Assembly: GCF_022347785.1 (NCBI RefSeq)
Contig: NZ_JAKRGA010000002.1
Span: forward strand, 372,001-436,000
Source of the DNA: Psychrobium sp. MM17-31
Lineage (GTDB): Bacteria > Pseudomonadota > Gammaproteobacteria > Enterobacterales > Psychrobiaceae
Length of the DNA: 64,000 nucleotides
Reading direction: 5' to 3'
The notes beneath the pieces are model-generated. The model did no database searches, was not told the origin of the DNA, and saw only the letters and a list, made by a program, of their open reading frames with translations. Of this stretch, positions 14,437 to 44,221 are shown one piece after another. Every line of letters begins with the position of its first letter. The stretch's first letter is position 1. The position numbers and the translations under genes are program-made.

Positions 14437-14883
14437 CTAAGAATAGTGTGGTGCAACAATCACTATTGATGGGGAGAGATGTGAATTTTTACGTAGCCAA
14501 AATTTACCGAGTTGTTGGCTTAAAACGCCACAGCTAATGCCGAATAGTATTGCGCTGTAATTAGCCAAAGCGAGCGTATCAACCAGCCACTTTTGACCGA
14601 CAATGCTACCTAGCAAAAGCCCAACCAACGGCAGTAAATAAGTCACCGCGCTAGCCACTAAAACGTTTGCTTCTTTAGTGGCAATAGTCACCCACTGGCC
14701 AACATTAAGGATCTGATTGGTTGCTACTTTGATACGCTGTGTTTTACCGTTAAAAGCCTTAGCAACAGTCCCTACTCCACAACTATCTTCACTAGCACAG
14801 CCAGAACAGCTGGAGTTGAGCTCATACTCAAGCTCAACACCATTGTGAAAAACGTCGCGTACTAAGGCTTTTTGCTCAATCAT
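14437..14883 (-). CDS. rseC: RseC family protein (SoxR-reducing system / sigma-E locus)
   Basis: A 148-residue inner-membrane protein with an N-terminal cytoplasmic Cys cluster (CSGCASEDSCG, about residues 25-35), which could hold an iron-sulfur centre, and two transmembrane helices (about 73-95 and 104-123). The family takes part in reduction of SoxR and, in some bacteria, in modulating sigma-E. It is the fourth gene of rpoE-rseA-rseB-rseC, 3 bases after rseB. Confidence 0.93.
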   Translation of the reverse strand: MIEQKALVRDVFHNGVELEYELNSSCSGCASEDSCGVGTVAKAFNGKTQRIKVATNQILNVGQWVTIATKEANVLVASAVTYLLPLVGLLLGSIVGQKWLVDTLALANYSAILFGISCGVLSQQLGKFWLRKNSHLSPSIVIVAPHYS

Positions 14884-14886
14884 TGC

Positions 14887-15825
14887 CTAACCTTTCGGCT
14901 CAATTGATTGGGCAATCTTTAATGCCGTTTCATAGGGAATTCGGCCAATGACGGTAATATCCGTTAAGCCGCGTCTAAAGTTCGCAACCGACAGGCCATT
15001 ATTCGTTTGCAGCCTCGCTGGTAATTCCGCTTTTTGAGCGTTGGCAACGTAAACGGAGACTTGCGTCAATCCATCACTTAACATCAAGTAATCGACATTT
15101 TGCGCCGTGTTTACTACGCGATGCTCATCGCTGGCCTTAACCTCAAATCCTGCTGGCAGCCAACTAAAGCGCCAATTATCTTGCGCCGTAGACGGCAACA
15201 TAACTGTTTCGTGCTTTGGCTGAGCAGCAAGCTTTTCAATGTTATCGCTTGGTCGCTCGTTAAGGTGTAAACCAACCGCTTGAACCTGCTCAATCAGGTT
15301 GTTGTTAAGATCAAACAAATCGTAACGCAACAACAACTTAGTCTCGACGTCTAACCACAAAATATAGTTAAAGCGATTGTTATCTTTCGCTTTAAGACGA
15401 ATAAGCTGAGTTACACGGCCTGCAATGCGCCCTTTCTCAATCATTGTCAGGGTGTAATTATCGAGAATGTGCTGTACTTTACCAACAAATATCGCAGGCG
15501 ACGGCCCAATAATTTGCGCAGCATTAATACTGTATGGACGACTCTCAGGTTCCATATAAGTCACAACGTTATCAACCCGATAGCTGTGACGCACCGGACC
15601 ACTCAATGCAGCAATATAGACCACTTGACGATCGTTACTAACACCGTGTTCAAATAAATAAGTTTGGGCTGAATTTGGCTCTAAATGAACCATAGGAATG
15701 GTAAAATTGAGTGTTTGATGGGCCAAACTCATCGAGTCTAGCCAATCTGTCGGTGTCTTTTCAGCTAAAGCGACGCTCGAAAAGAGTAATGAAAAGGCAC
15801 CGATAATGCGACGACAAGTGAACAA
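14887..15825 (-). CDS. rseB: Sigma-E regulatory protein RseB
   Basis: The 312-residue periplasmic protein binds the periplasmic part of RseA and shields it from DegS until lipid or LPS signals arrive. It starts at a TTG with GGGGA a few bases upstream and has a signal peptide ending SSVALA at about residue 21. The fold is the LolA-like N-domain plus a smaller C-domain (MucB/RseB family). It is 9 bases after rseA. Confidence 0.95.
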   Translation of the reverse strand: MFTCRRIIGAFSLLFSSVALAEKTPTDWLDSMSLAHQTLNFTIPMVHLEPNSAQTYLFEHGVSNDRQVVYIAALSGPVRHSYRVDNVVTYMEPESRPYSINAAQIIGPSPAIFVGKVQHILDNYTLTMIEKGRIAGRVTQLIRLKAKDNNRFNYILWLDVETKLLLRYDLFDLNNNLIEQVQAVGLHLNERPSDNIEKLAAQPKHETVMLPSTAQDNWRFSWLPAGFEVKASDEHRVVNTAQNVDYLMLSDGLTQVSVYVANAQKAELPARLQTNNGLSVANFRRGLTDITVIGRIPYETALKIAQSIEPKG

Positions 15826-15834
15826 TACTTTCCC

Positions 15835-16416
15835 CTATTTGTCTTTTTGTGGCGAACTCGCCTTTAAGCGCTGCTGCAATAAATGATCTTTAATATAGGC
15901 ATTCATTTTACGCTCAACCGCCATGCGCTCTTCTTCAGTCATTTGCTGTTGAACATCAGTTGATGTTCTCGAGAACTGCTGACTTACTGGAGATGCATAC
16001 CCCCCCGTTGGCATGGTTTGTAATACTGGAATATCTTGCTCTGCTGTTTGATTAGACTGCAACTGAATTGCACTAACCACCATAACCGCAGCAACAGAGG
16101 CAGCGATGCCATATGAGCCAAAGCGACCAAATAGTGATACCACGTTACCACTTGGTTTTTCTACTTTTTCGTCTGTGGTATTAACCGCAGTTTTTGGTGC
16201 TAAGATAGCTGGTTCTAGCTCGATAGCAGCACTAACCTTACTGGCAAAATCTGTTGAAAAAGCTGGTGCTAATTCATCGCGCATAGCATCACCAATGGTG
16301 TGAAAACGCTCGAAGTCTTTTGCACTTTCTACATCGTTAATCAATGCTTCTAACTGTGCTGCTGAAAGTTCTTGTCCATCCATGAAAGACGACAATAATT
16401 CTTTATTCTTTGACAC
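15835..16416 (-). CDS. rseA: Anti-sigma-E factor RseA
   Basis: A 193-residue single-pass membrane protein. The cytoplasmic domain (MSKNKELLSSFMDG..., residues 1-95) binds RpoE; a transmembrane helix lies at about 101-118; the C-terminal periplasmic part, rich in Gln, is the DegS/RseB target. The start codon is GTG with AAGGT upstream. It follows rpoE by 12 bases, the usual co-expression with its sigma factor. Confidence 0.95.
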   Translation of the reverse strand: MSKNKELLSSFMDGQELSAAQLEALINDVESAKDFERFHTIGDAMRDELAPAFSTDFASKVSAAIELEPAILAPKTAVNTTDEKVEKPSGNVVSLFGRFGSYGIAASVAAVMVVSAIQLQSNQTAEQDIPVLQTMPTGGYASPVSQQFSRTSTDVQQQMTEEERMAVERKMNAYIKDHLLQQRLKASSPQKDK

Positions 16417-16428
16417 TATTAATACCTT

Positions 16429-17007
16429 CTATCGTTGCATTAGCGGATCGATTTGCTTATCTAACGCTTCACGAGCCCTAAAAATACGCGAACGAACTGT
16501 CCCAACAGGACATTCCATTACATTAGCGATATCTTCATAACTTAAGCCATCTAATTCACGCAGCGTGATTGCCGTGCGTAAATCTTCTGGTAACTTCTCT
16601 AGAGTAGCAACTACTACCCCTTGTAATTCATCGGTTAACAACAAGCGCTCAGGCGATGCACCTTCGCGAAGCTCTTCACCGCCATCGTAGTATTCACCAT
16701 CTTCAATATCGATGTCTGAACTCGACGGCCGGCGCTTTTGTGCAACTAGGTAGTTTTTAGCTGTATTGACCGCAATTCTATATAACCAAGTGTAAAATGC
16801 GCTATCGCCACGAAAGTTTGGCAGTGCGCGATATGCCTTAATAAATGCTTCTTGAGCAACATCTGGCACATCACCTTGGTTTTTCACAAAACGACTAACT
16901 AAATTTAATACCTTGTGTTGATACTTTCTAACTAAGAGATCAAAAGCGGCCTTATTACCTTGCTGTACTAATTCAACTAACTGCTGATCTGTTTTTGTTT
17001 CGCTCAT
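16429..17007 (-). CDS. rpoE: RNA polymerase sigma-E factor
   Basis: A 192-residue ECF sigma factor for envelope stress. Region 2 contains DVAQEAFIKAYRALPNF and TWLYRIAVNTAKNYL; region 4 contains LRELDGLSYEDIANVM and GTVRSRIFRARE. Length and order match E. coli RpoE (191). A sigma-E-type promoter at 17069-17096 upstream indicates autoregulation. The gene leads the rse operon. Confidence 0.98.
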   Translation of the reverse strand: MSETKTDQQLVELVQQGNKAAFDLLVRKYQHKVLNLVSRFVKNQGDVPDVAQEAFIKAYRALPNFRGDSAFYTWLYRIAVNTAKNYLVAQKRRPSSSDIDIEDGEYYDGGEELREGASPERLLLTDELQGVVVATLEKLPEDLRTAITLRELDGLSYEDIANVMECPVGTVRSRIFRAREALDKQIDPLMQR

Positions 17008-30408: not shown

Positions 30409-30861
30409 TTACTTAATTAAACTATCAACCGAAATTTTACCGCCGCCGTGTTTAATTAAATAAAGCAATGGCACTAGCCACAAGATGTGTGTAGGCCAAG
30501 CATCTGGATAAACTAAAAACTGAATCACCGCAGTCATCACTAACAAACCAAGTGCGCTCAATCTAGTCAAAATACCCAGAATAATGGCTCCCCCTAAAAA
30601 GAACTCACCATAAGTTGCTAAAGGCGCAGCAATATCACTAGGAATTATCGGTAACTCGTATTCATATTCAAACAATGCATAAGCAGAATCTGACACATTA
30701 AAAAACTGCCATTTTTGCCCCAAGATAGTGCCGCCATCTATTTTCGTTTGTGCACTGCGCCAAAACACCATACCAACAGCAATGCGTGCCACCAATGCGA
30801 TAACGTCATCAGGAATTTTACTCAACAACTGATTTATCGATTCAAAAAAATTCTTCATCAC
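30409..30861 (-). CDS. DoxX-family membrane protein of the bufferin operon (BufD-like)
   Basis: A 150-residue inner-membrane protein with four hydrophobic helices, typical of DoxX (VARIAVGMVFWRSAQTKIDGG at the first helix, positions 24-44). It is the fourth and last gene of the precursor-MNIO-DUF2063-DoxX operon and begins one base after the DUF2063 gene. In bufferin loci the DoxX gene is a regular member; its biochemical job is not settled and may concern redox chemistry at the membrane. The assignment rests on family plus gene order. Confidence 0.85.
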   Translation of the reverse strand: MMKNFFESINQLLSKIPDDVIALVARIAVGMVFWRSAQTKIDGGTILGQKWQFFNVSDSAYALFEYEYELPIIPSDIAAPLATYGEFFLGGAIILGILTRLSALGLLVMTAVIQFLVYPDAWPTHILWLVPLLYLIKHGGGKISVDSLIK

Positions 30862-30862
30862 T

Positions 30863-31699
30863 TCACTCCTCTGTACCTAACTGGAAACCACTAAATACGT
30901 TTAAACTAAATAAGTAACCGAGCATGCCGCCAAGTTCACTATCATCGATATCCCTTCCTGCTTCTTGAGCCGAATTCACCGTTTCTTGCCACGCAACGCC
31001 AATCGCTTTTCCGCTAATCAATTGGCTAAGCAACACATAACAATTTCTATCTAAGTTAACCATTTGCACGGCTAAATCTTCGCGGTAAACGATGAGGTTT
31101 GCCGCTACAGCATTATCTAAATCTATTGTTTGCTGCTCTTGCTGTTGATTTTGCTGCCAAATTTCGTCAATTGGCCACACTGAATCAAGCAAGTACAGCG
31201 AATCTACGACACTAAAGCTAACATTGGCCAATTGCTCGGCAGGAACCTGTCCCAATATTTGAGGATCGAATACCTCACTATCAGCTTGGTGATAGGCTTG
31301 ATTTTGCACAAACTCCAAACGCGCAACATCTGCTAAGAATGGTAAATCTACACAAGGTGGAAAGGTGCTAATGAACTCACTAAATTCCTCACCATAGTGT
31401 AATAATGCAGCGTGCTTTGGCGGGTGTAAACGAACAAATTCTGTGGCAGCTGCCTTAAAGCAATCATCGCCAATTAATTTTTTGATAACAGGATACAAAT
31501 CGCCAAGTGCGGTCGTAAGCGAGTGCATCACATTATTGCGATAAATAGCGAGTCTAAGCTCAGCTTCGTCCTTAGATGTAGTAACCTCACCTTTAGTGGC
31601 AAACAGCGCCATCAGCTCATGACAATCATCGTCCAGCATCGCGGTTAAGAGACTGTGCTCCATTAATGCTTGATAAGATTTCAAATTAGGTGCCGTCAT
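30863..31699 (-). CDS. DUF2063 partner protein of the MNIO enzyme (BufC-like)
   Basis: A 278-residue protein with the N-terminal DUF2063 domain (about residues 15-115: RLAIYRNNVMHSLTTALGDLYP, positions 49-70, then KKLIGDDCFKAAATEFVR). It is annotated in databases as putative DNA-binding, but in MNIO systems proteins of this type bind the precursor and help the DUF692 enzyme. The C-terminal half is acidic and Gln-rich. It starts one base after the MNIO gene stop, indicating translational coupling. Confidence 0.85.
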   Translation of the reverse strand: MTAPNLKSYQALMEHSLLTAMLDDDCHELMALFATKGEVTTSKDEAELRLAIYRNNVMHSLTTALGDLYPVIKKLIGDDCFKAAATEFVRLHPPKHAALLHYGEEFSEFISTFPPCVDLPFLADVARLEFVQNQAYHQADSEVFDPQILGQVPAEQLANVSFSVVDSLYLLDSVWPIDEIWQQNQQQEQQTIDLDNAVAANLIVYREDLAVQMVNLDRNCYVLLSQLISGKAIGVAWQETVNSAQEAGRDIDDSELGGMLGYLFSLNVFSGFQLGTEE

Positions 31700-31700
31700 C

Positions 31701-32546
31701 TCAAGATACCTGCCCTAAATAGTCATTAGCGATATTGGCTTGCGCTTCCAGCGTTTGCCACGTTGGAACATCGTGATCCCATTCGATCAGCGTAGGCATA
31801 GCCCCCACTCTGTTCAATGTGTGCTGATACAATTGCCATACATCGTCACAAACCTTAGAGCCGTGATCATCAATACGAATTTCACTATCAAGCAACTTTT
31901 GTACACTATGGCCCGCTAAATGAATCTCACCAACTTGCTCAGGCGCTATTGCATCGATATACCCCATAGCGTCAAAACCGTGGTTCATCGCACTAACGTA
32001 AACATTATTCACATCCAGTAAAATTTTGCAGCCCGACTGTTTAGCGACTTCGATTAAAAATTCCTGCTCCGAAAACTCGTTATAATTAAGCTCAAAATAG
32101 CTCGATGGATTTTCAACGAGGATTTCGCGACCTAACACTTCCTGAGTTTGACTTATATTATTAACGAATACTTGCAGGGTCTCTTTGGTGTACGGCATAG
32201 GTAATAAATCATTGAGACTATGAGCACCATGTCGTGACCAAGACAAATGTTCTGACACCATCGCTGGTTGATAGCGCTCTACCAACTGCTTTAGCTCAGA
32301 TAGCTGCTGTAAGCACAATCCATCGCTACTCCCCAACGACAGACCAACTCCGTGAATAGACAACGGGAACTCTTGACGAATACGCTCTAAATGACGATGA
32401 AAGCTACCGCCTTTTCCCATGTAATTTTCTGCGTGGATTTCAAACCAAGCGACCTTGGTTGGCTGACTGAGGATTTGTTCGATATGCTGGGGTTTTAAAC
32501 CAACTCCAGCACGTGCTGGAATTGGTTGATTTGAATAGTTAAACAT
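31701..32546 (-). CDS. DUF692 multinuclear non-heme iron oxidative enzyme (MNIO, BufB-like)
   Basis: A 281-residue TIM-barrel enzyme of the MNIO family, which uses a multi-iron centre to modify Cys residues of RiPP precursors. Characteristic segments are AGVGLKPQH, EIHAENYMGKGG, SIHGVGLSLGS, SEHLSWS, ENPSSY, LLDVNNVYVSAMNHG, EIHLAGHS and LIEWDHD; the His, Glu, Asp and Asn residues in these are the metal ligands of the family. It lies 12 bases downstream of the DUF2282 precursor. By analogy with bufferins it would convert precursor Cys into thiooxazole-type heterocycles. Confidence 0.92.
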   Translation of the reverse strand: MFNYSNQPIPARAGVGLKPQHIEQILSQPTKVAWFEIHAENYMGKGGSFHRHLERIRQEFPLSIHGVGLSLGSSDGLCLQQLSELKQLVERYQPAMVSEHLSWSRHGAHSLNDLLPMPYTKETLQVFVNNISQTQEVLGREILVENPSSYFELNYNEFSEQEFLIEVAKQSGCKILLDVNNVYVSAMNHGFDAMGYIDAIAPEQVGEIHLAGHSVQKLLDSEIRIDDHGSKVCDDVWQLYQHTLNRVGAMPTLIEWDHDVPTWQTLEAQANIANDYLGQVS

Positions 32547-32558
32547 TTAGTAATGCGA

Positions 32559-32822
32559 CTATTTCTTAGGCTTTAAGCTACCGCCTACGATTTTTTCACA
32601 AGTGCCTTTAGGAACAAACATCCAAGCATTTTTTTGACCATCTTTAGTTGATGAACCAGCACAAGATGTACCAGGACCCGCGTGACAATCGTTTTTACCA
32701 GCTTTGGCAATACCGTAACATTTTTCTAGTTTTTTACCTTTTGCTTCAACATCAACTGATGTTACTGCAGCTAAAGAGATTGCAGCAGCAACTGCACCTG
32801 TAACTAATACTTTGTTAGACAT
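32559..32822 (-). CDS. Bufferin-type RiPP precursor (DUF2282, BufA1-like)
   Basis: An 87-residue precursor with a strong GAGGAAG ribosome site. Residues 1-27 form a Sec-type signal peptide ending VEAK. The mature part has four cysteines at 35, 46, 54 and 75 in [23 protein letters not shown] and GTCEKIVGG, the DUF2282/bufferin pattern. The central cysteines are those modified by the MNIO enzyme in characterised bufferins. The protein would be modified, exported and chelate copper in the periplasm. It heads the four-gene operon; possible -35 TTGAGC and -10 TATGCT elements lie upstream but are weak. Confidence 0.9.
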
Positions 32823-33025
32823 AATTTCTTCCTCGTGTGTTGTTTAATTTAGTACAGCATATTCAAGTAACCGACATATGCTCAACTTATCTTAAAAGAC
32901 CTGATAGGCAAAAAATAATTTCAGCAAAATGAGTTATTTGTTTAAATACTATAACTACAGATTGATTACTAAACAACAACCTCCTGAAATAGTGGAGTTT
33001 TATTTCCACGATTTCATAGGAATTA

Positions 33026-43697: not shown

Positions 43698-43774
<77 letters not shown>

Positions 43775-43851
43775 ACATCAGATATCTACCGAAGTAGGAA
43801 TTTACGAAGAACCGTTATGCCAGTGGCATAAGGAAGTCTGAGTAAATAAAG

Positions 43852-43928
43852 TGGGGTGACTAATGGGGCTCGAACCCACGACAACCGGAATCACAATCCG
43901 GGGCTCTACCAACTGAGCTATAGTCACC
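43852..43928 (-). tRNA. tRNA-His(GUG)
   Basis: The minus strand reads GGTGACTATAGCTCAG at the 5' end, includes anticodon loop TTGTGAT (anticodon GTG) and ends ACCCCA. The extra 5' G pairs with the discriminator C, the identity element of tRNA-His. CCA is encoded. It lies between the Arg and Pro tRNAs. Confidence 0.97.
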
Positions 43929-43948
43929 ACTAAAGACCTTTTATAAAA

Positions 43949-44025
<77 letters not shown>

Positions 44026-44144
44026 TCTTAACATTTTATAAAAATGTTAAATTTCAAAATAGTCACTCTTTTTAGACAAGCACAACTGCGTATCTAAAAA
44101 TAAGACCGTTACACAGTAGTTTAACGCAGCTTATTTTGAAATTT

Positions 44145-44221
<77 letters not shown>

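Follow-up and report, generated by a model that had tools for sequence, protein, structure and literature searches.

A four-gene operon on the minus strand of the Psychrobium sp. MM17-31 genome, lying within the 64,000-nucleotide stretch of DNA analysed here (the window), probably directs the synthesis of a modified, copper-chelating exported peptide; an ECF sigma factor encoded at an unlinked locus probably activates it in trans and governs the genome's Buf2 operon as well. Its family matches, together with the likeness of its partner-protein model to known structures, make it a new member of the Buf1 bufferins, as these are described in PMC12452194, rather than a new system. The bufferin family already numbers thousands, and the operon adds one member; what is new is a sequence resembling a promoter, which suggests that Buf1 and Buf2 answer to one distant stress regulator. 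The host is, as the original prediction had it, a gammaproteobacterium, and going by the literature on Psychrobium it is marine. The features on which the argument draws are as follows.

32896..32923, minus strand: ECF-type promoter-like element TGAAA-N17-GGTCTT, with the -35 at 32919-32923 and the -10 at 32896-32901
32559..32822, minus strand: bufA1, DUF2282 precursor of 87 aa, assigned by PF10048 and Cys positions
31701..32546, minus strand: bufB1, MNIO (DUF692) maturase of 281 aa, assigned by PF05114, NF050167 and PDB 3BWW
30863..31699, minus strand: bufC1, DUF2063 partner of 278 aa with a C-terminal RRE-like domain
30409..30861, minus strand: DoxX-family membrane protein of 150 aa, assigned by PF07681
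30343..30378, minus strand: terminator-like hairpin AACGCCCGC / GCGGGCGTT, recognized by eye, between doxX and a convergent nuclease gene
16429..17007, minus strand: rpoE (sigma-E), about 13 kb off in the same window and judged the less likely regulator

The original prediction described four minus-strand genes at 30409-32822 with gaps of 12, 1 and 1 bases, and both coordinates and strands proved exact. It identified the set as a bufferin operon, which Pfam, NCBIfam MNIO and structure tests support, and proposed a profile search for DUF2282, DUF692, DUF2063 and DoxX; with Pfam, all four proteins score above their gathering thresholds. The frames are conserved in seven same-genus orthologues (68-91 % identity for the precursors, 59-73 % for the MNIO), so the arrangement is not due to chance, and the Buf1 four-gene order was found in 54 of 80 named relatives. 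By profile, the flanking genes are unrelated to the operon: a LacZ-type beta-galactosidase lies upstream of bufA1, and a convergent ExeM/NucH-type nuclease lies downstream. On inspection by eye, the hairpin before the nuclease gene is GC-rich with T runs on both strands; a terminator scan did not list it, as its loop exceeds the length allowed by the scan. The doxX start is ambiguous (GTG at 30861 or ATG at 30858). Elsewhere in the window, a cluster of four tRNAs (Pro, His, Arg, Pro) occupies 43698-44221 on the minus strand, and Rfam and tRNA scans returned nothing but these four.

The precursor belongs to DUF2282 by profile, as had been predicted (PF10048, 94.3 bits against a cut-off of 22.4, 4.4e-27), and its four cysteines stand exactly where they had been placed, at Cys35, Cys46, Cys54 and Cys75; all four are invariant in 9/9 aligned precursors, including the second Buf1 precursor of this genome. 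A Buf2 identity was rejected, since the precursor scores just 18.2 bits with the NCBIfam BufA2 model, whose cut-off is 60. By eye, the N-terminus resembles a signal peptide, with a Lys-containing start and a hydrophobic stretch followed by VEA-KGKK. Searching PDB sequences with the precursor yielded no relative, the single match (E 0.34) being a chance one.

For the maturase, bufB1 matches Pfam MbnB_TglH_ChrH (PF05114) at 2e-104, NCBIfam NF050167 MNIO_BufB with 383.8 bits (cut-off 310), and PDB 3BWW at 2.3e-40 in a sequence search. The NCBIfam HvfB, ApyH, MbnB and ChrH models each score below their cut-offs, and a methanobactin-type MNIO was rejected at 56.1 bits for TIGR04159 against a cut-off of 325. 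Asp249 has been proposed as the catalytic base of FonB in the account of that enzyme (PMC12668002), and our own mapping through the 3BWW match suggests that Asp257 of bufB1 occupies this position. Asp257 is invariant in 8/8 aligned MNIO sequences and in all three MNIOs of the genome. The residue following it is variable in the DUF2282-type MNIOs compared here and Asp in the Buf2 MNIO, the same pattern as has been reported for the two types.

The third protein matches Pfam DUF2063 above the gathering score (2.1e-23) and gives 60.4 bits, below the cut-off of 142, with NCBIfam HvfC, the Haemophilus-type partner. In structure comparison, its confident model resembles the known MNIO partners 3DEE and TglI, and the C-terminal half resembles RiPP-recognition (RRE) proteins; bufC1 thus combines DUF2063 with an RRE-like domain, as type-1 partners do. 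PDB sequence searches with bufC1, whether by single sequence or by profile, missed 3DEE, which structure comparison found. Separated from bufC1 by a one-base gap, the DoxX protein matches PF07681 with 57.6 bits (cut-off 23.6, 2e-15) and NCBIfam HvfX with 42.1 bits, below the cut-off of 80.

Two further bufferin operons are present in the assembly (4.17 Mb, nine contigs, listed as 100 % complete), which holds two DUF2282 and three MNIO matches. About 244 kb away, a second Buf1 operon (L007, 3438-7677) comprises genes for a YHS-domain protein, thioredoxin, a Buf1 precursor, an MNIO whose 306.2 bits fall just below the BufB cut-off of 310, a DUF2063 protein named by position and alignment A3 without a profile, and DoxX; a gene for an AraC-cupin regulator lies divergent to them. 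The other, a tandem Buf2 operon about 60 kb away (L006, 4415-11756), encodes a BufA2 precursor, an MNIO and a DUF2063 protein. This precursor has two units with six Cys each (NF050166, 139.5 bits over two stretches, cut-off 60) and carries a putative lipobox, LMGC, recognized by eye; inspection by eye spotted no doxX gene in the operon. An HlyD-type gene lies nearby, and other neighbouring genes look like BlaI, M56 and TolC types, a setting that resembles a metal-efflux locus.

No sigma factor or copper regulator adjoins the window operon, just as the original prediction held. Across eight same-genus orthologues, the best-conserved stretch upstream of bufA1 is an ungapped TGAAA-N17-GGTCTT, which in the window stands 74 bases before the bufA1 ATG, counted from the last base of GGTCT; besides this element and the ribosome-binding region, little of the upstream sequence is alignable. 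In the form TGAAA-N17/18-GGTCT, the element precedes Buf1 in 9/9 readable loci (eight genus genomes and L077, a close relative not placed inside the genus), Buf2 in 6/6 (five N17, one N18), and an unlinked ECF sigma gene in 8/8 readable loci, all N18, a ninth orthologue being cut by a contig end and left outside the count. These counts come from related species and are therefore not independent, and the pattern was itself derived from eight of the nine Buf1 loci, N18 being allowed only once the ECF loci had been seen. For N17 alone, the counts are 9/9 for Buf1, 5/6 for Buf2 and 0/8 for the ECF gene. Dinucleotide shuffles matched the N17/18 form in 1/9000 (Buf1), 3/6000 (Buf2) and 1/8000 (ECF) cases, and shuffles of Buf1 gave 4/9000 for N17. 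The element is absent from the 220 bases before both the YHS gene and the precursor of the second Buf1 operon, and a different, seventh Cys-rich protein adjoining an MNIO (L024) is likewise without it. A sigma-70 scan is uninformative, as its five promoter-like sites compare with 7.2 expected by shuffling.

Within the assembly, the wider pattern TGAAA-N16..18-[AC]GGTCTT has six matches against seven for a reversed-pattern control, so that the number of matches is not above control and their positions alone are telling: three of the six lie before bufA1, bufA2 and the ECF gene. The stricter TGAAA-N17-GGTCTT also has six matches, against one for its control, two of them before bufA1 and bufA2; a narrower pattern requiring TT in the spacer has none in the assembly, missing even the bufA1 promoter itself. 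Genus-wide, 61 wider-pattern matches were listed, of which 57 distinct ones were classed (the other four being two bufA1, one bufA2 and one duplicate sequence). Twenty-nine lie inside reading frames of at least 110 codons and 28 between frames, the latter including five before bufA1, three before bufA2, eight before the ECF gene and three before dsbC. Single intergenic matches precede genes for a thioredoxin, a glutaredoxin, a DoxX-like, a glyoxalase-like and a chemoreceptor-like protein and one protein without a Pfam match; two more precede an unknown protein without a Pfam match (one of them scanned), and for one no gene was found. As a general target dsbC was rejected, for eight dsbC-like loci comprise three exact matches, one with a single mismatch and four without the element, that of the present genome among them.

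To gauge its range, the 77 of 80 named loci with a plus-strand DUF2282 were scanned; the strict element occurs in seven (L073-L079, that is, six genus-genome contigs and L077) and is missing from the other 70. Among 21 other-genus loci of the order, drawn from 30 loci listed, it occurs in none. The half-element TGAAA[GT]TT, sought within 200 bases upstream, is present in 7/8 loci of neighbouring family f21, with a CTATCC-like -10, and in 6/7 of family f12, with N18-GGTAT/GGTTT, and is absent from f4 (0/2) and f25 (0/4); mononucleotide shuffles gave 32/1600, 45/1400, 6/400 and 6/800 for f21, f12, f4 and f25, respectively. Neighbouring families may thus have kept the -35 while the -10 drifted.

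The unlinked ECF gene (G000:C3:324092-324637; loci L185-L192 in the set) encodes sigma-70 regions 2 and 4_2 and matches NCBIfam PRK12517 with 248.4 bits against a cut-off of 197. The gene after it encodes a DUF3379 protein of 245 residues (1.3e-40), which is, by position, the likely anti-sigma factor. Within the open-licence literature, nothing was found in print on DUF3379/PF11859, with or without sigma factors. The element is common to the bufferin operons and the sigma gene, and this sharing, which does not prove recognition, suggests that the ECF-DUF3379 factor may control both bufferin types in trans. At the sigma gene, the -10 (GGTCTT) overlaps the TTG that is its apparent start, and between -35 and -10 a Shine-Dalgarno-like sequence, AAGG or similar, was seen by eye. 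This overlap makes simple positive autoregulation doubtful: either the ECF start lies elsewhere or the element transcribes the downstream DUF3379 gene only. A broader proposal, which we judge to be evenly poised, is that the Psychrobium factor commands a single envelope copper/thiol-stress regulon, comprising the unlinked operons of Buf1 and Buf2, bufferins that differ in their chemistry, and, in sister species, dsbC, thioredoxin, glutaredoxin and DoxX-like genes; the promoter across the ECF start codon may drive the anti-sigma gene alone, as a built-in negative feedback, and neighbouring families would have kept the -35 with a drifted -10.

By analogy with characterized relatives, from which modification, disulphide formation, export and copper binding are all drawn, the DUF2282 peptide would be made with a Sec-type signal and held in the cytoplasm by the RRE-like domain of the DUF2063 partner, while the MNIO would turn the central Cys46 and Cys54 into 5-thiooxazoles. 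A Cys35-Cys75 disulphide would form, the exported product would chelate excess periplasmic copper, and DoxX may have an accessory membrane or redox role. The unlinked ECF factor, probably held in check by DUF3379 as anti-sigma, would activate the operon and the Buf2 operon alike.

It is possible, if on balance unlikely, that what the operon answers is not copper itself but oxidative or thiol damage to the envelope, with the peptide serving as a redox buffer or binding other soft metals. A related operon of H. influenzae is described as dependent on the ECF factor RpoE2 and responsive to hypochlorite (PMC7907618), sigma-F genes of Caulobacter are described as responding to chromate (PMC3511200), and in sister species the element stands before dsbC (three exact cases) and, in one species each, before a thioredoxin, a glutaredoxin and a DoxX-like gene. 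However, the published accounts of bufferins and captophorins report copper binding and a link to copper protection (PMC12452194; PMC12668002), the Buf2 operon lies close to the HlyD-type gene and the BlaI-, M56- and TolC-like genes, in surroundings that resemble a metal-efflux locus, and the dsbC gene of this genome is without the element. The oxidative reading and the copper reading do not rule each other out.

Control of the operon by the classical envelope-stress sigma-E, RpoE, is rather improbable. The rpoE gene lies in the same window, where it and the three genes after it (14437-17007), presumably look-alikes of rseA, rseB and rseC, stand together. All nine of nine genomes have both RpoE and the ECF-DUF3379 factor, so presence does not discriminate between them, and two loci from gammaproteobacterial MAGs (L080, L081) show by eye a sigma-E-like GGAAC-N16-GGTCTGA before bufA1. 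The promoters tell them apart, though: the genus rpoE promoter is GAACTT-N14-AGTCT in 9/9 genomes, close to the Shewanella RpoE promoter as given in PMC4336711, whereas the bufferin element TGAAA...GGTCT is found in 15/15 loci (nine Buf1, six Buf2) and also precedes another ECF gene, which sets it apart from the rpoE promoter.

Control of the Caulobacter type, by sigma-F with NrsF, was rejected as well, bearing out the earlier suggestion that regulation here may differ from that system. The NrsF anti-sigma factor has no match in the assembly, the Caulobacter control being positive, and the element differs from the sigma-F promoter, described as GTAACC-N16-CGAA (PMC3511200), of which the genus loci hold no GTAACC-type counterpart. 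Of the 77 relatives whose DUF2282 lies on the plus strand, eight have a pattern resembling it, and the window's closest relatives, L073-L079, are not among these eight. That the locus is decayed or unused is scarcely credible: its one favourable point is the missing adjacent regulator, while all four frames are intact and the operon and its element are kept genus-wide despite differing surroundings.

If regulation in trans by the ECF-DUF3379 factor holds true, it would offer a route to the regulators of bufferin operons without an adjacent one, give the ECF-DUF3379 pair a function, and link copper-binding peptides to disulphide repair. In Neisseria, an ECF-containing operon reportedly includes an MNIO gene. 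Published accounts describe that operon (PMC2893595) and ECF control of such operons in Caulobacter (PMC3511200) and, in trans, in H. influenzae (PMC7907618), and the 2025 survey records sigma-factor genes in Buf1, not Buf2, clusters (PMC12452194).

Among known systems, the Buf1 operon of Caulobacter vibrioides likewise has the precursor family, four cysteines, MNIO, partner, DoxX and gene order; it has sigma-F/NrsF, whereas the window operon instead has TGAAA-N17-GGTCTT and no NrsF match. Within the genome, the Buf2 operon shares MNIO, DUF2063 and the promoter element with the window operon, but its precursor, with two six-Cys units and a putative lipobox, is unlike the four-Cys DUF2282 precursor of Buf1. 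The gig operon of Legionella, named after that of Cupriavidus, is described as bringing DUF2282 and DUF692 genes together and as responsive to gold and copper, with RpoS suggested as its regulator (PMC5413113). The captophorins (fontiphorin, gonophorin and oxazolin), as described in PMC12668002, are associated with copper and rely on an MNIO and a type-1 partner making 5-thiooxazoles; their precursors carry EGKCG repeats, in contrast to the four-Cys DUF2282 domain found here. The doxX/MNIO operon of H. influenzae has, in its published description (PMC7907618), another precursor type and an anti-sigma factor of 67 residues and ZAS type, against the 245-residue DUF3379 protein here; it is likened to the window operon in that its ECF factor, RpoE2, is encoded elsewhere and governs the operon along with envelope-repair genes.
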